Assembly: GCA_012270585.1 (NCBI GenBank) | Contig: JAAXIB010000017.1 | Location: 1-58,898, forward strand | Origin: Nitrospirales bacterium | GTDB taxonomy: Bacteria; Nitrospirota; Nitrospiria; Nitrospirales; UBA8639 | Length of the DNA stretch: 58,898 nucleotides | Direction of reading: 5' to 3' | Shown: piece by piece, positions 13,135 through 24,614 of the stretch | Layout of the letters: every line of letters begins with the position of its first letter | Numbering within the stretch: the stretch's first letter is position 1 | The notes under the pieces: model-generated | Databases searched by the model: none | What the model was told of the DNA's origin: nothing | What the model saw: only the letters and a program-made list of their open reading frames with translations | Program-made: the position numbers and the translations under genes

Positions 13135-14649
13135 ATGGGTAAAGAAGAAATCAAACAGCAAGACGTTAACAGCGCCGCCTGGAAGGCCTGCGACACTTTC
13201 CGCGGGGTGATGGATGCCACGGATTACAAGGACTACATCCTCGTCATGCTGTTCGTGAAATACATATCGGACACCTGGAAGGCGCATCTCGAGGAATATC
13301 GGAAGCGCTTCAGCGGTGATGACACCAGAATTCGCCGAAGACTGGAACGCGAACGTTTTGTGCTGCCCGAAGGCGCCGGCTTCTACGAGCTTTACGAAAA
13401 GCGTAATGAAGCCAACATCGGCGAGTTGATCAACGTGGCGTTGGAGTCCATTGAAGAAAAGAACAGGACAAAACTGGAAGGCGTGTTTCGCAACATCGAT
13501 TTCAACTCAGAAGCCAAACTCGGCAGGACCAGAGACCGCAATCGGCGACTGAAGCTGTTGCTGGAAGATTTTAACAAACCCGAGCTCGACCTGAACCCCA
13601 ACCGGGTGTCCGAAGACGTGATCGGCAACACCTATATCTACCTGATCGAGCGGTTTGCCTCCGACGCGGGAAAGAAAGCCGGGGAGTTCTATACGCCCCA
13701 CAAGGTATCGGAACTGGCGGCGCGCCTGTGTGCCCCGGAACCCGGTGCCCGTATCTGCGATCCAGCCTGCGGGTCCGGCGGCCTGCTGATTGAAGCCGCA
13801 CGAGAGGTAGGCGACAAAAATTTTTCTCTGTCAGGCATGGAAGTGAACGGCGGCACGTGGGCCTTGTGCCGCATGAACATGTTCCTGCACGGCATGGATT
13901 CGGCCCGGATTGAATGGTGCAACACTCTCACGGGCCCGGCTTTGGTGGAGAAGGACAGGCTGATGAAGTTCGACAACATCGTCGCCAACCCGCCATTTTC
14001 CCTGGATAAATGGGGCGCGGACGAAGCCGCGGACGACAGGTTCAACCGCTTCTGGCGAGAAGTGCCGCCCAAATCCAAAGGAGATTTCGCCTTTATCACT
14101 CACATGATTGAAGTGGCGCTGGAACAGAAAGGCCGCGTGGCGGTCGTAGTGCCGCACGGGGTGTTATTCCGCGGCTCGGCCGAAGGACGCATTCGCCGGA
14201 AGTTGATAGAAGAAAATCTGCTCGATGCGGTAGTCGGCCTGCCAGGGAACCTGTTCCCGACCACGTCCATACCGGTCGCCATTCTCGTCTTTGACCGTTC
14301 CCGAGAAAAAGGCGGCACAAACGAATCACGCAAAGACGTGCTGTTTATTGACGCAAGCAGGGAATACCAGCCTGGCAAAAATCAGAACACATTGCTTGAC
14401 GAGCACTTGGACAAAATCGTTCGGGCGTATCAGAAGCGGGAAAGTATTGAGAAATATGCACATCTGGCCGGCGTTGCGGAGATCGAAGAAAACGACTTCA
14501 ACCTCAACATCCCACGCTATGTAGACACCTTTGAGGAAGAGGAGCCTATTGATATTGATGCGGTGGAGCAGGAAATTGAGCAATTGGAAACCGAGTTGGC
14601 CGAAGTGCGCGGCAAGATGCGAAAAATGCTGAGAGAGATTGAGAGATAA
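13135..14649 (+). CDS. hsdM: Type I restriction-modification DNA methyltransferase subunit
   Basis: A 504-residue N6-adenine methyltransferase that, with HsdS, methylates host DNA and protects it from HsdR. The N-terminal helical domain is followed by 'AGEFYTPHKVSELAARL', the SAM motif I 'DPACGSGG' (209-216) and the catalytic motif IV 'NPPF' (285-288). 'FPTTSIPVAILVFDR' and the C-terminal 'NDFNLNIPRYVDT' are standard HsdM blocks. The C-terminal acidic coiled coil would contact HsdS. The ATG at 13135 has a good ribosome binding site (AGAGGAG, 13122-13128). It has the normal length for the family and no damage. Confidence 0.95.
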   Translation: MGKEEIKQQDVNSAAWKACDTFRGVMDATDYKDYILVMLFVKYISDTWKAHLEEYRKRFSGDDTRIRRRLERERFVLPEGAGFYELYEKRNEANIGELINVALESIEEKNRTKLEGVFRNIDFNSEAKLGRTRDRNRRLKLLLEDFNKPELDLNPNRVSEDVIGNTYIYLIERFASDAGKKAGEFYTPHKVSELAARLCAPEPGARICDPACGSGGLLIEAAREVGDKNFSLSGMEVNGGTWALCRMNMFLHGMDSARIEWCNTLTGPALVEKDRLMKFDNIVANPPFSLDKWGADEAADDRFNRFWREVPPKSKGDFAFITHMIEVALEQKGRVAVVVPHGVLFRGSAEGRIRRKLIEENLLDAVVGLPGNLFPTTSIPVAILVFDRSREKGGTNESRKDVLFIDASREYQPGKNQNTLLDEHLDKIVRAYQKRESIEKYAHLAGVAEIEENDFNLNIPRYVDTFEEEEPIDIDAVEQEIEQLETELAEVRGKMRKMLREIER

Positions 14650-14666
14650 ATCCGCAAATAACACAG

Positions 14667-15683
14667 ATGAGCGTAGACAAAAAAATAGGAGTGAGAAAAG
14701 TGAAAAAGGGAAAGAATGTCAAAGATATTGTCATCTATCAGGCTAAAAGCGGCAAAATTGAATTCCGCGGGGATTTTGAACGCAACACGATATGGGGCAG
14801 CATCAATCAGATTGGAGAGTTATTCGGAGTTCAAAAAGCGGCGGTCTCAAAACATATGAAAAATATTTTTAATGATAAGGAGTTGGATAAGAAGGCAACC
14901 GTTTCCATTTTGGAAACAGTTCAAATGGAAGGAACAAGAAAAGTAAGCAGAAGAATAGAGTACTACAATTTAGACGTGATTCTCTCAGTCGGCTATCGCG
15001 TAAACTCGAAACAAGCCACACAATTCCGCATTTGGGCCACCAGGACACTTAGACAACATCTCCTTGAAGGCTATACCATCAACAAAAAACGCATTGCCCT
15101 GAATTACGAGCACTTCCTGCGGGTAGTTGACGATCTCAAAACACTCCTGCCTAAACATCATACAATCCAGACACAGGACGTTCTGGAACTTGTGGAGGCT
15201 TTTGCCGGCACTTGGTTTTCCCTGGCTGCCTATGACACGCAAAACTTCCCCAAAAGCGGGGCAACCCAAAAAGAGGTAACGTTTACGGCCGATGAATTGA
15301 CTCAAGCATTGCACGAACTCAAGCAGGAACTGATTGTGCGCAAACAAGCAACGGATCTTTTCGGTCGGGGAAAGAGCGAAGATACCATACACGGGATCGT
15401 CGGCAACGTGTTCCAAGCCTTCGGCAAGCAAGACGTGTATCCAACGGTTGAAGAGAAGGCCGCACACCTTCTCTACTTCATGGTGAAAAATCATCCCTTT
15501 GTAGACGGCAACAAACGAAGCGGAGCATTCGCGTTCATCTGGTTTTTACGTAAAGCAGGACTCCTCCGGGCGAACCTCACTCCGGAAGCCCTGACGGCGT
15601 TGACGCTATTGGTGGCAGAGAGTCATACGCAAGACAAGGAAAAGATCATTAGGTTAGTTCAGTTGTTGTTACAGAGAAGATAA
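14667..15683 (+). CDS. RhuM-Fic/Doc fusion protein
   Basis: A 338-residue protein with two parts. Residues about 15-150 form a RhuM-type domain (Virulence_RhuM family: 'NTIWGSINQIGELFGVQKAAVSKHMKNIF', then 'YNLDVILSVGYRVNSKQATQFRIWATRTLR' near 90-125; motifs listed as regions). The C-terminal part is a Fic/Doc domain with the complete active-site motif HPFVDGNKR (276-284), which in Doc transfers phosphate and in Fic transfers AMP to target proteins. The N-terminus is probably DNA-binding or regulatory. Such fusions are often found inside type I restriction loci, as here behind hsdM. No small inhibitory antitoxin is visible next to it. Target unknown. Confidence 0.85.
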   Translation: MSVDKKIGVRKVKKGKNVKDIVIYQAKSGKIEFRGDFERNTIWGSINQIGELFGVQKAAVSKHMKNIFNDKELDKKATVSILETVQMEGTRKVSRRIEYYNLDVILSVGYRVNSKQATQFRIWATRTLRQHLLEGYTINKKRIALNYEHFLRVVDDLKTLLPKHHTIQTQDVLELVEAFAGTWFSLAAYDTQNFPKSGATQKEVTFTADELTQALHELKQELIVRKQATDLFGRGKSEDTIHGIVGNVFQAFGKQDVYPTVEEKAAHLLYFMVKNHPFVDGNKRSGAFAFIWFLRKAGLLRANLTPEALTALTLLVAESHTQDKEKIIRLVQLLLQRR

Positions 15684-15687
15684 AGGC

Positions 15688-16738
15688 ATGAACAACAAGC
15701 CCTCAAAAAGCCTGACCATCCGCAACAGCACTGCGGAATTTCTCATTTTCACTAGCCAGGCTGGTGAGGATGGGATTGAAGTACGTTACCAGGACGAAAC
15801 CATCTGGCTCACGCAAAAACTCATGGCTCAATTATTTGACGTTGAACGTTCTGTCATTACCAAACACCTGCAAAATATCTTTAACGATAACGAGTTAGAG
15901 CAGGACTCAGCATGTGCAAATTTTGCACACACTGCCTCCGACGGTAAAAGCTACAAAACTCAGTTCTACAATCTGGATGCCATCATCTCCGTTGGTTACC
16001 GCGTGAATTCCAGACGCGCCACCCAATTCCGCCAATGGGCCACGCAGATCCTGCGGAAATTTTCCGTCAAGGGCTATGTGCTGGATAAGAAGCGACTCGA
16101 ACATGGAGCGTTCCTTGGCGAAGACTATTTTGAACGCCTGCTTGCTGAAATCCGTGAAATCCGTCTGAGCGAGCGGCGCTTTTATCAGAAAATCACTGAC
16201 ATTTACGCCACCAGCGTAGATTACAACAAGGGCGCCCCGACCACCCGTAAATTTTTCGCCAACGTACAAAAAACTGCATTACGCCATTCACGGCCAGACC
16301 GCCGCGGAACTCATCAAAAATCGTGCGGACAGCAGAGCTAAAAATATGGGGCTGACCAGTTGGGAAGATAGCCCTGATGGAAAGATTCTTAAAACCGATG
16401 TGTCGGTTGCCAAGAATTATCTGTCCAAAGAAGAGTTGGAATTGTTGGGGCGTATTGTCGGCGCCTATCTTGACCTTGCCGAAGACCGCGCAAAACGCAA
16501 AATCCCCATGACCATGGAAGATTGGGCAAAACGGCTTGATCAATTTCTGACATTCAATGAACGCGAAATTTTAAAGGATGCAGGGAAAATCAGTGCCGAG
16601 ATTGCCAAAGATCACGCCGAAAGTGAATTTGAGCAGTATCGCATTATCCAGGATCGCCGGTTTGAATCCGACTTTGATAGAGAGTTCAAGAAACTCGAAC
16701 GGGAAGCGAGCCGAAAAGACGTGGTAAAGAATGAGTAG
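15688..16738 (+). pseudogene. RhuM family gene interrupted by a frameshift
   Basis: A RhuM-family protein of about 345-350 residues is split into two frames. The first part (from ATG 15688) carries 'IWLTQKLMAQLFDVERSVI' and 'YNLDAIISVGYRVNSRRATQ'. It loses homology after 'RKFFANVQK' and would stop at 16341. The continuation 'KLHYAIHGQTAAELIKN' to 'EREASRKDVVKNE' is read in the +1-shifted frame from about 16271 to the stop at 16738. The break lies at a C plus six A run (16267-16273). The downstream frame stays free of stops, so the lesion is recent, a sequencing error in the homopolymer, or a programmed shift. The last 8 bases overlap the following hsdS. Confidence 0.8.
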
Positions 16739-17891
16739 AAAGGCAGTTAAAGACAAAGCGTTGCCGAAGGGGTGGCGAAGGGTGAAGGTTATAGATTTCT
16801 CTCCTCTCCAAAGAGGTTTCGACTTACCCACTGATCAGATTAAAGAGGGAGCTTATCCTGTCGTTTACTCCAATGGCATAAAAAACTACCATTCAGAATA
16901 TAAGCTAAAAGCCCCTGGTGTAGTGACAGGAAGGTCCGGCACAATCGGAGAAGTCACTTATGTAATCCAAGATTACTGGCCACACAATACATCGCTATGG
17001 GTTACTGACTTCAAAGAGAATCAACCCAAGTTCGCATTCTATTCCCTACAAAATTTGAGACTGGATAGATTTTATGCGGGAAGTGGTGTGCCGACGCTTA
17101 ATCGCAACGATGTTCATAAGCAATCTATTCTTGTCCCTCCACTCTCCCAACAAAAAGCTATTACGTCTTTACTCGAAACATGGGACACGGCAATAGAAAA
17201 GACCGAACGCCTCATCGCCGCCAAGGGGAAGCAGTTTAAGTGGTTACTGAAAAGGCTTATTAGCGACCAGCGAAACAACCCTGAATGGCGGAAAGTGAAG
17301 TTAAATGATGTTGGGTTAGTATCCAGTGCAGGAGTAGATAAGAAAACTGTCGAAGGGGAAAATTCAGTCAGGCTGGTTAATTATCTGGATGTGCTGAGAA
17401 AAGATTTTATTTCTTCCGATGATTTAGATCATTGGGTGACTGCACCAGACAGGAAAGTGATTCAGTGTGACGTAAGAAAAGGTGATGTCTTTTTCACCCC
17501 ATCATCTGAAATTCAGGGAGATATAGCGCACTCAGCCGTTGCTGTGGAAGATATAGACAAAGCAGTTTATAGCTACCACATTGTGCGATTCCGGCTAAAT
17601 GAAAACTGGGACACAGTTTTCAGGACTTATGCATTTAAGTCATCACATTTTTATAAACAAGCCTACAGAATGTGTGAGGGCAGCGGACAAAGATATGTAA
17701 TCTCACAAGACGACTTCAGAAACATGACGATTTGTATTCCTAATTTAGAAGAACAAAGAAAAATTGCGCAAACGCTTAGTACTGCTCAAAAGGAAATTGA
17801 CCTGCTCCGACAATTCGCCAAACGATACCGCACACAAAAGCGCGGGTTGATGCAGAAATTGCTGACTGGGGAATGGCAGATAAAAACCTAA
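16731..17891 (+). CDS. hsdS: Full-length type I restriction specificity subunit
   Basis: A 386-residue HsdS with two target-recognition domains, each followed by a helical spacer. The first spans roughly residues 10-130 ('GVVTGRSGTIGEV', 'VPTLNRNDVHKQSILVPPL') with spacer 'EKTERLIAAKGKQFKWLLKRL'. The second spans about 190-345 ('CDVRKGDVFFTPSSE', 'GSGQRYVISQDDFRNMTICIP') with spacer 'LRQFAKRYRTQKRGLMQKLLTGEW'. HsdS picks the bipartite DNA target of the methylase and nuclease. It starts at ATG 16731, overlapping the end of the rhuM frame by 8 bases, which suggests translational coupling. The C-terminal 'GLMQKLLTGE' is a hallmark of complete HsdS. Confidence 0.93.
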   Translation: MSRKAVKDKALPKGWRRVKVIDFSPLQRGFDLPTDQIKEGAYPVVYSNGIKNYHSEYKLKAPGVVTGRSGTIGEVTYVIQDYWPHNTSLWVTDFKENQPKFAFYSLQNLRLDRFYAGSGVPTLNRNDVHKQSILVPPLSQQKAITSLLETWDTAIEKTERLIAAKGKQFKWLLKRLISDQRNNPEWRKVKLNDVGLVSSAGVDKKTVEGENSVRLVNYLDVLRKDFISSDDLDHWVTAPDRKVIQCDVRKGDVFFTPSSEIQGDIAHSAVAVEDIDKAVYSYHIVRFRLNENWDTVFRTYAFKSSHFYKQAYRMCEGSGQRYVISQDDFRNMTICIPNLEEQRKIAQTLSTAQKEIDLLRQFAKRYRTQKRGLMQKLLTGEWQIKT

Positions 17892-17921: not shown

Positions 17922-18329
17922 ATGGACGTCACAGAAAAAGTCATAAAGCATCTGGAAATGACCCAAGCCGTTATCAACCGTTTGGGGAACAACTCTTTCC
18001 TGTTAAAAGGCTGGAGCATGACAATCATTGTCACGGCTATGGTTTTAATAGCCAGATATGACTTACAAAACCCCTGTATTATCCTGTCCCTTATTCTCCC
18101 CATCCTCGGGTTTTGGATTCTGGATGGCTACTTTCTCTGGAAGGAAAGATTGTTTCGGGAAATCTACGATGATGTCAGATGTCAATCCGACACCGATTTT
18201 AAAATGGACTTGCTGAAGCATAAAAACAAGCCAAAATGCAGTTGGATATCCGCTATGTTTTCTGTCACGCTCATCATTTTCTATTCGGTAGAGATTGTAC
18301 TGATTGTTGTTGTGTTTTCAATTTTGTAG
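17922..18329 (+). CDS. Small multi-pass membrane protein, candidate effector of the TIR cassette
   Basis: A 135-residue protein with an N-terminal amphipathic helix, a hydrophobic hairpin (about 28-46 and 50-72), a charged cytoplasmic stretch of about 35 residues ('FLWKERLFREIYDDVR' onward) and a last hydrophobic segment at 108-134. I can name no domain. Its stop codon overlaps the AGGAGG ribosome binding site of the first TIR gene, so the two are tightly coupled. Small helical membrane proteins are common killing modules in TIR, CBASS and similar defence systems. I infer, without proof, that this one is the membrane-damaging or sensing partner of the TIR proteins. Base composition is clearly AT-rich compared with the chromosome. 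Confidence 0.7.
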   Translation: MDVTEKVIKHLEMTQAVINRLGNNSFLLKGWSMTIIVTAMVLIARYDLQNPCIILSLILPILGFWILDGYFLWKERLFREIYDDVRCQSDTDFKMDLLKHKNKPKCSWISAMFSVTLIIFYSVEIVLIVVVFSIL

Positions 18330-18338
18330 GAGGACTCT

Positions 18339-18779
18339 GTGAGAAAAGTATTTTTCAGTTTTAAATATAAAGATGATGTTTCAAGAGCAATGGTTGTCAG
18401 AAATAGCTGGGTTACCCAAGGTAAAGAAGCTGCGGGTTTTATAGATGCGGCGAATTTTGAAAAAATTAAACGTCAAGGTGATGCAGCAATCCGGTACTGG
18501 ATTGACAATCAATTAAAAGGCACTTCCGTGACAGTTGTTCTGGTTGGACAACATACATGCAACAGCCGCTGGGTAAGATATGAAATAGAAAAAAGCATTG
18601 AAATTGGCAACGGTCTTTTAGGTATTGATATAAGTAAGATCGAGGATCTCCAGGGAAACACCAGCAAACGATGTGGGGAAATACCTAAAGACTATTCATT
18701 CTACTTATGGAATAAAGACGATGGCTACAACAATATGGGCGAGTGGATAGAAAAAGCCGCCAAGCAAGCGGGCAGATAG
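18339..18779 (+). CDS. ThsB-like TIR domain protein 1
   Basis: A 146-residue single-domain protein of the MTH538/ThsB TIR-like family (formerly DUF1863). In Thoeris defence, ThsB TIR proteins sense phage and turn NAD into a cyclic or modified ADP-ribose signal. N-terminal 'KVFFSFKYKDD', then 'VVRNSWV', 'GTSVTVVLVGQHT' and 'SRWVRYEIEKSI' follow the family exactly. The WxxxE motif (Trp78-Glu82) keeps the candidate catalytic glutamate. The C-terminus 'WNKDDGYNNMGEWIEKAA' is shared with the third copy. The GTG start at 18339 is set by AGGAGG at 18328-18333. The next TIR gene starts 10 bases after the stop. No NADase-type ThsA is nearby. Confidence 0.9.
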   Translation: MRKVFFSFKYKDDVSRAMVVRNSWVTQGKEAAGFIDAANFEKIKRQGDAAIRYWIDNQLKGTSVTVVLVGQHTCNSRWVRYEIEKSIEIGNGLLGIDISKIEDLQGNTSKRCGEIPKDYSFYLWNKDDGYNNMGEWIEKAAKQAGR

Positions 18780-18789
18780 GAGACCGGCT

Positions 18790-19293
18790 ATGCCCAAAAG
18801 ACAGGTTTTTTATAGTTTTCACTACAAACCGAATAGTTGGCGTGCATCGCAAGTTCGCAACATAGGAGTTATTGAAGGCAACAATCCCGTTTCTGACAAT
18901 GAATGGGAAACAATTACAAGGGGAGGCGATAACGCAATTAAGCGATGGATAGATGATCAGATGAAATACAGGTCATGTACCGTTGTTCTCGTCGGGAGCA
19001 AGACCGCAAATAGAAAATGGATCAATTATGAAATAATCAAGTCATGGGATGATGGAAAGGGTGTTGTTGGCATTTACATACATGGATTGAAAGATGAAGA
19101 AGGCCATATATCGCAAAAAGGGGATAATCCTTTTAGTTACATAGGATATGGCAATACTGGCAAAAAATTGTCCTCAATAGTCAAGTGCTACGGTCCTCAA
19201 GGAAACAACAGCAAAGACAGATATGATTGGATTTCAAGGCACTTGGCTAATGCAGTAGAGGAAGCCATCTGTATAAGAAAACAATACGAATGA
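18790..19293 (+). CDS. ThsB-like TIR domain protein 2
   Basis: A 167-residue ThsB-like TIR protein, diverged from its two neighbours. It keeps 'QVFYSFHYKPN', 'QVRNIGVIEG', 'RSCTVVLVGSKT' and 'RKWINYEIIKSW' with the WxxxE pair Trp77-Glu81. Its C-terminal third differs: it contains 'NPFSYIGYGNTGKKLSS' and ends in a longer tail without the 'DDGY' block, closer to the Bacillus ThsB type in this region. Start ATG 18790 with AGGAGA at 18778-18783, which overlaps the stop of TIR 1. In Thoeris loci several ThsB copies often recognise different phage triggers; that role is inferred here. Confidence 0.88.
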   Translation: MPKRQVFYSFHYKPNSWRASQVRNIGVIEGNNPVSDNEWETITRGGDNAIKRWIDDQMKYRSCTVVLVGSKTANRKWINYEIIKSWDDGKGVVGIYIHGLKDEEGHISQKGDNPFSYIGYGNTGKKLSSIVKCYGPQGNNSKDRYDWISRHLANAVEEAICIRKQYE

Positions 19294-19314
19294 ATTTATG
19301 GATGACTCAGATGG

Positions 19315-19580
19315 GAACACAAAAAACTTATCTCCATGGATGGTCGGGGACGCTGTATGGTCCCCATCTTCATCGAACAGCTCTGGCGCTCACTCACGGA
19401 CGAAGCCGTCTCTTGGCACGAGTTGACCAACGGCTTCCAGGCCAAGCCTTCACACAGCGCTCGCTGGCTGGATGCCAGCGGAGGCATGGAGCCATAGCGA
19501 GCCGGTGGGGAAGGCTAGCCCAGCATATCCAACGGTTCCACAAATTGTCTTGACTGTTTTTCGCAACTCCGGGGGCGGCA
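19315..19580 (+). mobile_element. Remnant of an IS3-family transposase (OrfB C-terminus)
   Basis: The frame through the ATG at 19336 reads 'ISMDGRGRCMVPIFIEQLWR' then 'SLTDEAV', the characteristic 'SMDGRGR...(I/V)F(I/V)E(R/Q)LWRSL' block of IS3-family OrfB integrases before the last catalytic glutamate region. It stops at 19497. A second frame then reads 'MPAEAWSHSEPVGKASPAYP', resembling the C-terminal 'TP.EAY...' end of these transposases. No complete element, inverted repeats or OrfA is left. The fragment is GC-richer than the TIR genes on both sides and separates TIR 2 from TIR 3. Confidence 0.75.
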
Positions 19581-19582
19581 TC

Positions 19583-20173
19583 ATGAGAAGAGTATTTTTC
19601 AGTTTTGATTGGGACGACGTGTGGCGAGTCAATCAGGTCCGCAATAGTTGGGTTACAAAAGGCAACTATAAAATAGCAGGCTTTGCAGATGCGGCAGAGA
19701 TAGAAGAAGTCAAGAAACGAACAGACAAAGAAATCCGGAAGTGGATAGATGGGCAGATAAAAGGAACATCTGTTACCTGTATCTTGATCGGCAGCAAAAC
19801 AGATGAAAGTAAATGGGTGAAATACGAGATAGAAAAGAGCATCAAGCAAAAGAAGGGTCTTTTGGGAATTCTTATTCACGACTTGAAAGATGTTGATGGC
19901 AAAACTGATAAAAGGGGAGCCAATCCCCTGGACGATTACAATGAGAATGATTTTGGCGAGACAGTTAAAAGAACTCTGCCTGGAGGGGTCGTTGGGTGGG
20001 GACTTGCGAGACTTGTTTTTCCTCAATTCGTCATTCCGGCAACTCTTTTTGGAGCTGCCCTTGTCCTCCTAGCGTCAAATGACGATTACAGGATTTATGA
20101 TTGGGTTGAAGATGACGGATATAAAAACTTGGGCGCCTGGATAGAAGAAGCCGCTACGCAAGTGGGCCGATAA
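19583..20173 (+). CDS. ThsB-like TIR domain protein 3 with membrane-segment insertion
   Basis: A 196-residue ThsB-like TIR protein close to TIR 1 over the core ('RVFFSFDWDDVWRVNQVRNS', 'GTSVTCILIGSKT', 'SKWVKYEIEKSI' with Trp78-Glu82). It carries about 45 extra residues (roughly 118-167) before the shared C-terminal block 'YDWVEDDGYKNLGAWIEEAA'. The insertion contains a hydrophobic, Gly-rich segment at 133-164 that could span the membrane once or form a hairpin. This would tether the enzyme to the membrane, unlike the two soluble copies. ATG at 19583 with 'GGGGGCGGC' upstream as a weak ribosome site. It follows the IS3 remnant, so it may have lost its original upstream context. Confidence 0.88.
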   Translation: MRRVFFSFDWDDVWRVNQVRNSWVTKGNYKIAGFADAAEIEEVKKRTDKEIRKWIDGQIKGTSVTCILIGSKTDESKWVKYEIEKSIKQKKGLLGILIHDLKDVDGKTDKRGANPLDDYNENDFGETVKRTLPGGVVGWGLARLVFPQFVIPATLFGAALVLLASNDDYRIYDWVEDDGYKNLGAWIEEAATQVGR

Positions 20174-20189: not shown

Positions 20190-20888
20190 TTGGAAAATCT
20201 ATTTGTGAAAACGACAGAACCTACATCTCCGCACAACCTGTATATGTTTGTGGATGAAGGCGGAAATTTCGACTTTTCCCAAAAAGGAACAGCTTTCTTT
20301 ACCCTGACGTGTGTAGCAACCGAGCGTCCTTTCAGGATTTACCAAGAAATTGATAACTACAAATACGATTTAATTGAAAATGGCTTTCCTTTGGAATTTT
20401 TTCACTGCGCCGAGGACAACAAGCACATCAGATCCAAAATGCTGAGTCTTATCAAAAACTATCTATCAAAACTTCGAATTGACAGTTTGATCGTTGAGAA
20501 GCGTAAGACTGCCCCTTCTCTTCAGGAAGCAACAGCGTTCTATCCGCGTATGCTGGGCTACCTCTTGGCCTATGTTTTGAAAAATTATCGATCCGGCCAA
20601 TTCAGCAAAATCGTGATCATCACAGACAGCATGCCGGAAACGAAGAAACGTAAAGCAATGGAAAAATCAACCAAGGCGGTTCTGGAAACCATGTTGCCCA
20701 AAGGTACAAACCATACCATCCTGCATCATGCAGCCAAGTCTCACTACGGTCTCCAGATTGTTGACTATTGTAACTGGAGTATTTTCAGAAAATGGGAGCG
20801 TAGCGATAATGAACACTATAGCCTGATAAAATCAGCTATACGGAGTGAATTTGATATCTTCCTGACTGGAAAAAGAAGATACTACTGA
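20190..20888 (+). CDS. DUF3800 domain protein
   Basis: A 232-residue protein of the DUF3800 family. 'LYMFVDEGGNFDF' near the N-terminus is the family's acidic 'DES/G-G' motif. 'IVIITDSMPETKK' and the C-terminal 'YGLQIVDYCNWSIFRKWE' supply the other conserved acidic positions of an RNase H-like fold. DUF3800 proteins are uncharacterised nucleases or nucleotide-acting enzymes frequent in defence islands and prophages. It begins 16 bases after TIR 3, so it may belong to the same transcript. The start is uncertain: TTG at 20190, GTG at 20205 or ATG at 20244 are all possible. A nested hairpin follows the stop. Confidence 0.8.
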   Translation: MENLFVKTTEPTSPHNLYMFVDEGGNFDFSQKGTAFFTLTCVATERPFRIYQEIDNYKYDLIENGFPLEFFHCAEDNKHIRSKMLSLIKNYLSKLRIDSLIVEKRKTAPSLQEATAFYPRMLGYLLAYVLKNYRSGQFSKIVIITDSMPETKKRKAMEKSTKAVLETMLPKGTNHTILHHAAKSHYGLQIVDYCNWSIFRKWERSDNEHYSLIKSAIRSEFDIFLTGKRRYY

Positions 20889-20905: not shown

Positions 20906-20967
20906 ACCTCCCCAACTACTCTTCTGTTGCCAGAGAGAGCCCCTTGGGCTCTTGTCATCGGGGAGGT
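20906..20967. other. Nested hairpin downstream of the DUF3800 gene
   Basis: ACCTCCCC (20906-20913) pairs perfectly with GGGGAGGT (20960-20967). Inside it, AGAGCCC (20936-20942) pairs with GGGCTCT (20946-20952) across a 3-base loop. There is no T-run, so a rho-independent terminator is not proven; a structured RNA or a repeat end is also possible. Confidence 0.5.
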
Positions 20968-21051
20968 ACCTTTGTTGGTATATTAAAACGGCAAAAACCC
21001 AAAGTCAAACAAGCATTGATCACAATATCTTCACTTCCATGGCACTTCCAT

Positions 21052-21288
21052 AAAAGCCACCTCCACCACCTGCTCGACTATAAGCAATGGAAGAATTTCA
21101 AAACCGTTATCGATAAAGCAAGAACTGCCTGTGAGATGGCGGGACATCGTGTTTCCAATCATTTTGCCGACGTCGGCAAAACGATGAAAATGCCCAAGGG
21201 AGCGGAAAACCCCATAGATGATTTTATGCTTACCCGCTACGCCTGCTACCTCATCGCTCAGAACGGTGACCCGCGCAAAGATCGTTGA
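21052..21288 (+). pseudogene. Fragment of a dinD-like (DNA-damage-inducible protein D) gene
   Basis: About 78 codons encode the central part of DinD: 'LLDYKQWKNFKTVIDKART', 'NHFADVGKTMKM' and 'LTRYACYLIAQNGDPRK'. In intact DinD the last block continues into 'E.IA.AQTYFA' and roughly 150 more residues. Here it ends after three residues at a stop, and the N-terminus does not match upstream of about 21052. It is therefore a decayed remnant. DinD-like genes often sit in type I restriction loci, and this one lies between DUF3800 and hsdR. The function is presumably lost. Confidence 0.75.
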
Positions 21289-21428: not shown

Positions 21429-24400
21429 ATGCCCAGCTTTCAATTCAACGAAAAATACCTCTCCCAAATTCCCGCTCTCCTGGAACTGGTCAATCTCGGC
21501 TACGAATACCTGACACCGGAACAGGCCTTTAAGGCAAGGCGAAAGAAACTCGGCGATGTTTTGCTGGAAACCACCCTGCGCCGGCAAATCAGGAAGATCA
21601 ATCGCATCCACTACAGAGGCCGCGAATACCGGTTCAGCGAAGAGAACATTCAGTCCGCCGTTCAGAAAATCAAGAACATCCAATACGCTGGCCTGCTGAA
21701 AACCAATGAGGCGGTCTATGACCTGCTGACCCTCGGCACCGCCATGGAGCAGTCCATCGAGGGAGACTCCAAGAGTTTTACCCTGAACTACGTTGACTGG
21801 AAAAACCCTTCCAATAACGCGTTTTACGTTACGGCGGAGTTTCCCGTTGAGAGAACGCGCAGCACTGAAACCGCCCGTCCGGATATCGTCCTGTTCGTGA
21901 ACGGCATTCCGTTTGCCGTGATTGAATGCAAATCGCCCGGCGACAAGGTGGAAGCGGCGATCTCTCAGACAATCCGCAACCAGACGGAGGAATATATCCC
22001 CCGGCTTTTCATCTATACCCAATTGTTGATGTCGATCAACAAAAACGACGCCCGATACGCCACGGCTGGAACGGAACAGAAATTCTGGAGCCTTTGGAGA
22101 GAAAAAGAGGACAGCGAAAAAGTCGTGGAGCAGGTCGTCAACAGACCGCTTAAAGAAGAAACGAAAGACGCCCTGTTCTCCGGAGACTTCGCCGCTGCCC
22201 GCCGATATTTCGACGAATTGGGAGCACGGCAGATCACGGAGCAGGACCGGGCCATCTACAGCCTCTGTCGCCCGGAAAGACTGATGGAACTCTCACGTCT
22301 GTTCACGCTTTTTGACGCGGGTAAGAAGAAAATTTCGCGCTACCAGCAGTTTTTTGTCGTGCGCTCCGCTTTGGAGCGCGTCAAGACGTTTGATGACGAG
22401 GGACGGCGAAAAGGCGGCATGATCTGGCATACGCAGGGTTCGGGAAAATCGCTGACCATGGTCTGGCTCGCGCGTCTTCTGGCAATGGATAAGGAGATCA
22501 CCAATCCACGCATCATCATGGCAACGGACAGGAAAGACCTGGACAGACAGATTGAAAAAGTGTTCCGGCAGTGCGGTATCGAGCCGGAACGGGCGGCAAC
22601 CGGACGGGAACTCCTCGAACTGATCAGGTCGAAAACGCCCGTGGTTACAACCCTGGTGCATAAATTCGACAAAGCGTTGAACGCAGGAAGTCTGAGTGAT
22701 GAGGATCCTAACGTCTTTGTGCTGGTCGATGAAAGCCATCGCACCCAGTTCGGTACGCTTGCGGCGCGGATGCGACAGATACTGCCAAGGTCCTGCTACC
22801 TCGGTTTCACGGGAACCCCGCTTACCAATGAGCAGAAAAACAACTTCGTCAAATTCGGGGGGTTGATCGAGCCCTCCTATTCCGTCCGGCAAGCCCTCGA
22901 TGACGAGGCGATTGTGCCGCTCCTGTACGAAGGGCGTCACGTGGAGATGGAGCAGGACAAAGCCGCCGTTGATCTGTGGTTTGAACGATACACCGCCGAC
23001 CTCAGTGAAAAACAGAAAGCCGATTTGAAAAGAAAGTATGCTCGCGCGAATACACTCAACAAGGCGAAGCGGGTCGTCTATATGCGCGCCTTCGACATCA
23101 GCGAACATTATCGCGCCAACTGGCAAAGCACGGGTTTCAAGGGTCAACTGGTTGCGCCGGACAAAGCCACGGCCATTCAATATCATCAGTTCATGAAAGA
23201 AATGGAAGCCGTTTCCTCCGAAGTGGTCATCTCCCCGCCAGATATGCGAGAGGGCTTTGAAGACGTTGATGAAAGGCCGAATTCCGAAGTTCGGAATTTC
23301 TGGGACAGCATGATGAAACGCTTCGGCTCGGAGACCCAATACTCGGAAAACATTATTGAGCGTTTTAAAAGTGCCGAAGAACCTGAGATCTTAATCGTGG
23401 TGGACAAACTTCTGACCGGATTTGACGCTCCGGTCAACACCGTTCTTTACCTTTGCAGAAAACTGCGCGAACACACGCTGCTCCAGGCGATTGCACGCGT
23501 CAACCGACTGCACGAAGGCAAGGACTTCGGCTATATCGTGGACTACGAAGGCATCCTTGGGGAACTGAACACGGCCTTGACGATGTATGACGCGCTGGAA
23601 GGGTTTAACGAGAAGGATTTGGAACATGCGCTGGTTTCCGTCAATGAGCAGATTGAAAAACTGCCGCAGAAACGTTCCCATCTTTGGGACGTTTTCAGAG
23701 AGGTCAAGAACCAAGCCGATGAGGAAGAATATGAACAGCTTTTGGGCGACGATGTACGAAGAGACGATTTTTACAGGCTGCTTGCGGAATATGCCAAAAC
23801 CCTTGCCGTTGCCCTTTCGTCTCACAAATTTTTAACGGACACGGACGAAACAGCCCTGCGGCATTACCGGGAAGATTTGAAACGGTTTGAAAATTTGAGG
23901 AAGTCTGTGAAGCGACGCTACGCCGACACCGTTGATTACAGAGAGCACGAGCCGAAAATCAGAAAACTCCTGGATACCCATATTCAGGCCGACACGGTGA
24001 CGCAGATCAACAAACCGGAGAACGTTTTTCACGGCCTCCCAATGGGCGAAAGTGGCGTGGACGTCGAGTACGGCAGCAAAACCGAAGCCTCACGGGCGGA
24101 CAGCATCGCCCACCTGATGAAGCGCACAATCAGCGAAAAAATGGAGGAAGACCCGGCCTTTTACCAAAAGTTTTCAAACCTGATCCAACGGGTCATTGAT
24201 GAGTTCAGAGCAGAGCGGATCTCCGGAGTGGAGTATCTGGACAGAGTTTCCAGGCTGAAAAAAGACTTCGACAGCCGGGGCAATGAGGACGTGCCCGAGA
24301 AACTGCGTCTTAACAGGGACGCCGCCGCGTTTTTCGGTGTCATTAAACCTGTTTTTGAAACGTCCGGCTGCAATGCCGACACGTGTGATGGGCACTCGGC

Positions 24401-24614
24401 GGATACGGCTCTTGCTCTCCATGAAATTTTGCAACGCCACGGCAAAGTCCATTTCTGGGACGACCCGGATGCGCGAAACAGCGCCATCAACGACATTGAG
24501 GACTATCTGTATGACGAGGTGAAAGCCAAAAGAGGCATTGCACTGAGCAACGAACAACTGGATGAGATTATCGAGCGGACCATGAGGATTGCCCGTAACA
24601 GGATGTACGGATGA
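21429..24614 (+). CDS. hsdR: Type I restriction endonuclease, motor/nuclease subunit
   Basis: A 1061-residue HsdR that translocates and cuts unmodified DNA in complex with HsdM and HsdS. The N-terminal PD-(D/E)xK nuclease core is intact (Asp152 in 'RPDIVLFVNG', Glu166 and Lys168 in 'VIECKSP'). The superfamily 2 motor follows, with Walker A 'TQGSGKS' (Lys340), motif II 'VLVDESHRTQFG', motif III 'FTGTPL' and motif VI 'LLQAIARVNRLHEGK'. A helical C-terminal domain completes the family's normal length. It is separated from hsdS by 3.5 kb of TIR, DUF3800 and remnant sequence and has its own palindromic upstream region, so it is probably transcribed separately. Confidence 0.95.
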   Translation: MPSFQFNEKYLSQIPALLELVNLGYEYLTPEQAFKARRKKLGDVLLETTLRRQIRKINRIHYRGREYRFSEENIQSAVQKIKNIQYAGLLKTNEAVYDLLTLGTAMEQSIEGDSKSFTLNYVDWKNPSNNAFYVTAEFPVERTRSTETARPDIVLFVNGIPFAVIECKSPGDKVEAAISQTIRNQTEEYIPRLFIYTQLLMSINKNDARYATAGTEQKFWSLWREKEDSEKVVEQVVNRPLKEETKDALFSGDFAAARRYFDELGARQITEQDRAIYSLCRPERLMELSRLFTLFDAGKKKISRYQQFFVVRSALERVKTFDDEGRRKGGMIWHTQGSGKSLTMVWLARLLAMDKEITNPRIIMATDRKDLDRQIEKVFRQCGIEPERAATGRELLELIRSKTPVVTTLVHKFDKALNAGSLSDEDPNVFVLVDESHRTQFGTLAARMRQILPRSCYLGFTGTPLTNEQKNNFVKFGGLIEPSYSVRQALDDEAIVPLLYEGRHVEMEQDKAAVDLWFERYTADLSEKQKADLKRKYARANTLNKAKRVVYMRAFDISEHYRANWQSTGFKGQLVAPDKATAIQYHQFMKEMEAVSSEVVISPPDMREGFEDVDERPNSEVRNFWDSMMKRFGSETQYSENIIERFKSAEEPEILIVVDKLLTGFDAPVNTVLYLCRKLREHTLLQAIARVNRLHEGKDFGYIVDYEGILGELNTALTMYDALEGFNEKDLEHALVSVNEQIEKLPQKRSHLWDVFREVKNQADEEEYEQLLGDDVRRDDFYRLLAEYAKTLAVALSSHKFLTDTDETALRHYREDLKRFENLRKSVKRRYADTVDYREHEPKIRKLLDTHIQADTVTQINKPENVFHGLPMGESGVDVEYGSKTEASRADSIAHLMKRTISEKMEEDPAFYQKFSNLIQRVIDEFRAERISGVEYLDRVSRLKKDFDSRGNEDVPEKLRLNRDAAAFFGVIKPVFETSGCNADTCDGHSADTALALHEILQRHGKVHFWDDPDARNSAINDIEDYLYDEVKAKRGIALSNEQLDEIIERTMRIARNRMYG

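Follow-up and report, generated by a model that had tools for sequence, protein, structure and literature searches.

TIR 3, encoded in a 58,898-nucleotide stretch of Nitrospirales DNA (contig JAAXIB010000017.1 of assembly GCA_012270585.1, the window below), is a genuine ThsB-family TIR protein with an unusually hydrophobic linker ahead of its C-terminal block. We consider the chances about even that it is the ThsB-type enzyme of a Thoeris-like module in which the small membrane protein M50A replaces ThsA, and that the linker acts as a membrane hairpin or docking element next to this effector. The parts of the protein referred to below are as follows.

19583..20173, plus strand: TIR 3, ThsB-family TIR protein of 196 aa, with F5 and E82 as the predicted catalytic pair
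19979..20080, plus strand: hydrophobic linker of TIR 3, residues 133-166
20081..20170, plus strand: C-terminal block of TIR 3, residues 167-196 (DDYRIYDWVEDDGY...), a strand and a helix completing the TIR fold

The reading frame of TIR 3 (19583-20170, plus strand) encodes 196 residues. A mechanical list of open reading frames gives an alternative start upstream, at 19472; orthologues use the ATG at 19583. An earlier note made from the DNA letters called the protein ThsB-like, and sequence, family models and structure all bear this out. TIR 3 scored 83 bits (2e-23) against the Pfam ThsB_TIR model, well above the curated cut-off of 21.2 bits, and matched the PADLOC models ThsB (1e-59) and PDC-M50B (1.5e-56). 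The closest structural matches to its AlphaFold2 model (mean pLDDT of 78.9) were B. cereus ThsB and EcThsB, with VIA Z of about 19, followed by a group at Z of 12 to 14. Superposition on B. cereus ThsB (6LHY) gave a VIA Z of 19.3 over 139 residues, with an rmsd of 3.1 and 45% identity in the structural alignment. Both F5 and E82 are invariant across 53 aligned homologues. In the numbering of the structural alignment, F5 corresponds to F6 of B. cereus ThsB, and the pair is equivalent to F6/E81 of staphylococcal ThsB2, mutation of which abolished immunity (PMC11312562). NAD+ is the probable substrate. Alignment also confirmed the resemblance to TIR 1 at both ends, including the DDGY..(L/M)G.WIE.A block. 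Phage records contained no match to TIR 3, and a single distant viral contig was the only viral hit.

Residues 144-166 of TIR 3 form a run of 23 residues without any D, E, K or R, and the highest 19-residue Kyte-Doolittle mean (KD19) of the protein is 2.02, the usual mark being 1.6. This value was reached in 361 of 20,000 whole-protein shuffles (1.8%); composition alone makes such hydrophobicity uncommon, not impossible, and conservation is the stronger evidence. The linker is present in two further Nitrospira genomes, G011 (locus L024) and G006 (locus L030). The orthologue in G011 is 78% identical to TIR 3 across the whole protein, and the gene in G006 is frameshifted near residue 90. The genes in the window and in G011 are intact, with the catalytic residues present. 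A VFPQ..IPAT.FGAAL core recurs in the linker of the orthologues, and linker dN/dS was 0.13 to 0.41 in the three orthologue pairs (33-34 codons, small counts). Judged from these sequences, the hydrophobicity is real and under purifying selection.

The earlier note had described the segment as a membrane-segment insertion. The hydrophobic stretch itself stood up, but the insertion site is not new. It counts as inserted in comparison with TIR 1 (146 aa) alone; B. cereus ThsB, at 193 aa, can be aligned with TIR 3 over the whole length and has a segment of similar length ahead of its YRVYDWVxDDGY block, which in the crystal structure is an antiparallel beta-sheet, beta5-beta9 (PMC7272460). Across the ThsB family, linkers of about 12 to about 60 residues occur. 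The linker of TIR 3 is odd in being hydrophobic rather than in where it sits, and TIR 1 is the short version. Among 108 strong ThsB homologues, only the Nitrospira orthologues from the three genomes are hydrophobic at the linker position. The sole other protein of the 108 with a KD19 above 1.6 is from a Halorhabdus plasmid, and its helix follows the C-terminal block. The insertion thus does recur among ThsB homologues, but narrowly: outside the window we saw it only in the other two Nitrospira genomes. The linker motif was absent from viral contigs, a plasmid search with the linker plus C-terminal block matched the block alone, and no ThsB carrying a membrane segment was found in open-access papers. 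The linker is a variant specific to its lineage, local to three related genomes.

In the AlphaFold2 model, most of the core (residues 41-120, pLDDT 85-95) and the C-terminal block (residues 171-196, pLDDT 87-95) form one domain. Residues 121-170 were modeled as three short helices with pLDDT of 46 to 59, and the model does not pack the linker into the fold with confidence; such packing is what the earlier note had named as counting against its proposal. If this fold is right, a single-pass membrane helix is excluded topologically, since the core and C-terminal block belong to one domain and the chain enters and leaves the linker on the same side. Two ordinary crossings would need a longer hydrophobic part, and two prolines lie in the middle of this one. 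Its insertion energy, prolines included, was estimated at about +1 kcal/mol, slightly unfavourable; this value is approximate and a guide only, obtained with a published scale without its Trp/Tyr edge terms. On this model, a membrane-dipping hairpin or a docking element appears likelier than a single crossing, a soluble role is possible too, and placement of TIR 3 at the membrane by its linker is plausible.

TIR 3 belongs to a module flanked by hsdS and hsdR within a type I restriction-modification locus; the same placement is seen in two relatives, G001 and G011.

13135..14649, plus strand: hsdM of the enclosing type I restriction-modification locus (family match, relatives)
16731..17891, plus strand: hsdS-like gene, also part of this locus (relatives have homologues in the corresponding position)
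17922..18329, plus strand: PDC-M50A (M50A), 3-TM protein of 135 aa, proposed effector partner (PADLOC PDC-M50A, 3e-38; 66 non-redundant homologous ORFs; AF2 pLDDT of 86)
18339..18779, plus strand: TIR 1, short ThsB-family TIR of 146 aa with a GTG start (reading frame, Pfam, PADLOC)
18790..19293, plus strand: TIR 2, ThsB-family TIR of 167 aa (reading frame, Pfam, PADLOC)
19294..19554, no strand: unrelated filler DNA separating M50A-TIR1-TIR2 from the TIR3 part (homology breaks; single copy in genome)
19555..19586, plus strand: scar left by a lost M50A gene, namely its 3' end, with a stop that overlaps the start of TIR3 (ATGA; homology to L024/L030)
20190..20888, plus strand: DUF3800 protein, also found after TIR3 in relatives, 84-87% identical (family matches, relatives' loci)
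21429..24614, plus strand: hsdR of the type I restriction-modification locus (family match, relatives)

Between hsdS and hsdR, G001 carries M50A-TIR1-TIR2 and G011 carries M50A-TIR3-DUF3800, and the window module looks like the sum of the two arrangements. Homology to G001 ends at 19290, 264 bp of unrelated DNA follow, and homology to G011 and G006 starts at 19555, inside the last M50A codons. The filler (about 19294-19582) was considered as a repeat or insertion sequence and rejected, as it occurs once in the genome. The start of TIR3 overlaps the stop of M50A in the relatives. Because homology resumes within the last M50A codons, TIR 3 evidently came together with an M50A of its own, or once had one, and this gene has since been lost. 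The gene at 17922, the sole M50A match in the genome, is likely the common partner of all three TIRs. Two halves of a RhuM gene (15688-16341 and 16346-16738) are broken in the window and form a single frame of ~371 aa in L024 and L157; a RhuM-type N-terminal part is fused to a Fic domain at 14667-15683, within the restriction locus, and is conserved in relatives. A Bro-N fragment lies ahead of hsdR at 20944-21288, and the several Bro-N fragments found around the module in relatives too suggest repeated insertion and decay there.

Four residues of M50A (R20, D68, E75 and R76) are invariant in its family. The AF2 model comprises a long helical hairpin, whose two helices exceed their hydrophobic parts, and a third TM. 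Its fold had no confident match or clear relative in the PDB or among viral models. A likeness to K+ channels and helical bundles (Z of about 8) was set aside as being at the level typical of unrelated helical models, and assignments to 8xMP (octameric membrane protein) or DUF3278, which matched below curated cut-offs only, are not claimed.

The earlier note suggested that the signal could be made next to a membrane partner, and this neighborhood extends well beyond the window. Homologues of M50A are found beside ThsB TIRs in Poribacteria, Latescibacteria, Patescibacteria, Armatimonadota, Proteobacteria, Bacteroidota, Firmicutes, actinobacteria, cyanobacteria and haloarchaea. It was found within 1.5 kb of 62 of 108 strong TIRs, a count that includes some loci fetched with M50A as the query; in 43 of these 62 cases the two genes share a strand and are <60 bp apart. 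Among loci retrieved with a TIR query, 28 contained M50A only, 21 contained SIR2-ThsA only, 1 contained both and 8 contained neither (Fisher p = 4.5e-8). The sole locus with both partners, L062, may represent two systems, since its two TIR genes lie on different strands. On a tree of 111 TIRs, about 15 changes between M50A and SIR2 were counted; the tree is a quick one of moderate support, its loci are non-independent, and short contigs can hide a partner. No thsA, either SIR2-SLOG or TM-macro, was found beside thsB among the window neighbors scanned, and M50A stands in its place. From these gene arrangements, M50A may be read as an alternative Thoeris effector. SIR2-ThsA effectors are activated by 2'/3'cADPR (PMC11204291). 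Since close relatives of SIR2-linked TIRs serve M50A, the M50A systems may well use the same type of signal.

Several loci of the survey have features of their own. On a Halorhabdus tiamatea plasmid (L092:3998-4657), a ThsB-family TIR with a C-terminal membrane helix is encoded by a gene that overlaps an M50A gene; it is a second case, after TIR 3, of a membrane-type segment in an M50A-linked ThsB. In a related TIR from Natrinema (L152:2998-3783), the C-terminus is extended by a portion that includes a weakly hydrophobic, Gly-rich stretch. The two membrane-bearing TIR lineages both belong to M50A systems, and two are too few for an association test. Genes for HIT-domain (nucleotide hydrolase-like) proteins, which could process the signal, adjoin M50A-TIR pairs in haloarchaea and actinobacteria (L152, L153, L069 and L085). 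Enterobacterial plasmids have a distant M50A homologue ahead of another TIR protein; on a conjugative Klebsiella pneumoniae plasmid (L102:4001-5306), the homologue (33%) comes before a TIR protein of 287 aa, and M50A homologues occur in 117 plasmid records, many of them from Klebsiella and Escherichia.

In the mechanism that we propose, TIR 3, like TIR 1 and TIR 2, would sense a phage component and convert NAD+ into an ADP-ribose-derived signal. The signal would cause M50A to permeabilize the membrane, and the infection would be aborted. The linker of TIR 3 would form a membrane-dipping hairpin or dock on the M50A helices, holding the catalytic domain at the cytoplasmic face beside its effector. 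We infer the identity of the signal, the action of M50A as a pore and the membrane contact of the linker. What counts against the proposal is that the hydrophobic linker occurs in just three closely related genomes, one of which has a frameshifted gene; the linker is therefore dispensable for the system in general. The slightly unfavourable insertion energy and the low AlphaFold2 confidence for the linker also weigh against it.

The same linker could instead be a soluble element, lying against the TIR surface or serving in TIR-TIR assembly or autoinhibition. In ThsB, extensions and inserted loops are frequent and have been proposed to keep the proteins from self-associating until infection (PMC11204291), the corresponding position in B. 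cereus ThsB holds a soluble beta-sheet, and the insertion energy of the linker is marginal. We regard this as somewhat unlikely: AlphaFold2 gives no confident packing of the linker on the core, and 23 uncharged residues with a KD19 of about 2 in three orthologues exceed anything found at this position in all other homologues. Another reading has the linker drift under weak constraint, as a segment particular to this lineage, while TIR 3 as a whole decays; we find this quite improbable. The narrow distribution of the linker, the loss from the window of TIR 3's own M50A, recorded in the deletion scar, and the frameshift in G006 would all be expected from such drift, but dN/dS of the linker is well below 1 in all three pairs, its core motif recurs, and the genes of the window and of G011 are both unbroken and retain the catalytic residues.

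The role of M50A can also be turned around, so that it serves the TIR as a membrane receptor or activator, and NAD+ depletion by the TIR is the effective step. Many TIR domains are NADases, and the conserved charged residues of M50A would equally fit a protein interface. Such an arrangement is unlikely given that M50A alternates almost exclusively with SIR2-ThsA and that closely related TIRs swap between the two. The effector slot is the simplest reading for M50A, because the TIR in SIR2 systems signals and does not kill.

Taking M50A as an effector, a wider proposal can be made, tentatively and with less confidence than that for TIR 3: minimal, 3-TM, signal-gated M50A proteins would form a further class of ThsB effectors, exchanged with SIR2-ThsA many times in bacteria and archaea, and some of the TIRs would have a membrane tether (in Nitrospira a hairpin within the fold, in Halorhabdus a C-terminal helix), with the signal made at the effector. 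If this is right, Thoeris TIRs are a plug-in module that leads either to depletion of NAD+ or to damage of the membrane through a protein of only ~135 residues. Near relatives of one TIR would sit on both sides of the swap, making it testable whether one cyclic ADP-ribose signal serves both effectors, and the tethered proteins would provide a natural experiment on whether fixing the signal-producing enzyme at the membrane alters defence.

The PDC-M50 gene pair is not new. PADLOC lists PDC-M50A and PDC-M50B as candidate genes, and proteins of the window match both models within one operon. Our search of open-access papers found none naming or testing PDC-M50, no biochemical data for any M50A system and no description of the effector-replacement evidence; this evidence and the hydrophobic linker are additions to the PADLOC listing. 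A TIR gene beside a SLATT membrane effector was predicted earlier to form an ADPr-regulated permeability system (PMC9503650). In these pairs, from Firmicute phages, a TIR likewise adjoins a small membrane protein with proposed control of permeability by an ADPr derivative, whereas M50A has a third TM and no SLATT family was listed among the Pfam matches (E up to 0.1) of 35 of its members. Thoeris systems with TM-macro ThsA, as in E. coli CFT073 and B. amyloliquefaciens, combine a TIR signal with a membrane effector (PMC11204291), as proposed here. Unlike TM-macro ThsA, M50A is built of membrane helices and a helical hairpin within about 135 aa, with no macro domain found by Pfam, and the active site of TIR 3 has Phe rather than Tyr. 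With B. cereus ThsB (6LHY/9B7D), TIR 3 shares the fold, the catalytic Phe/Glu, the C-terminal YDWxxDDGY block and a similar total length. The two differ in the variable segment, which is hydrophobic in TIR 3 and a soluble beta-sheet in B. cereus ThsB, and in the partner, which is M50A rather than the SIR2-SLOG ThsA of B. cereus Thoeris.
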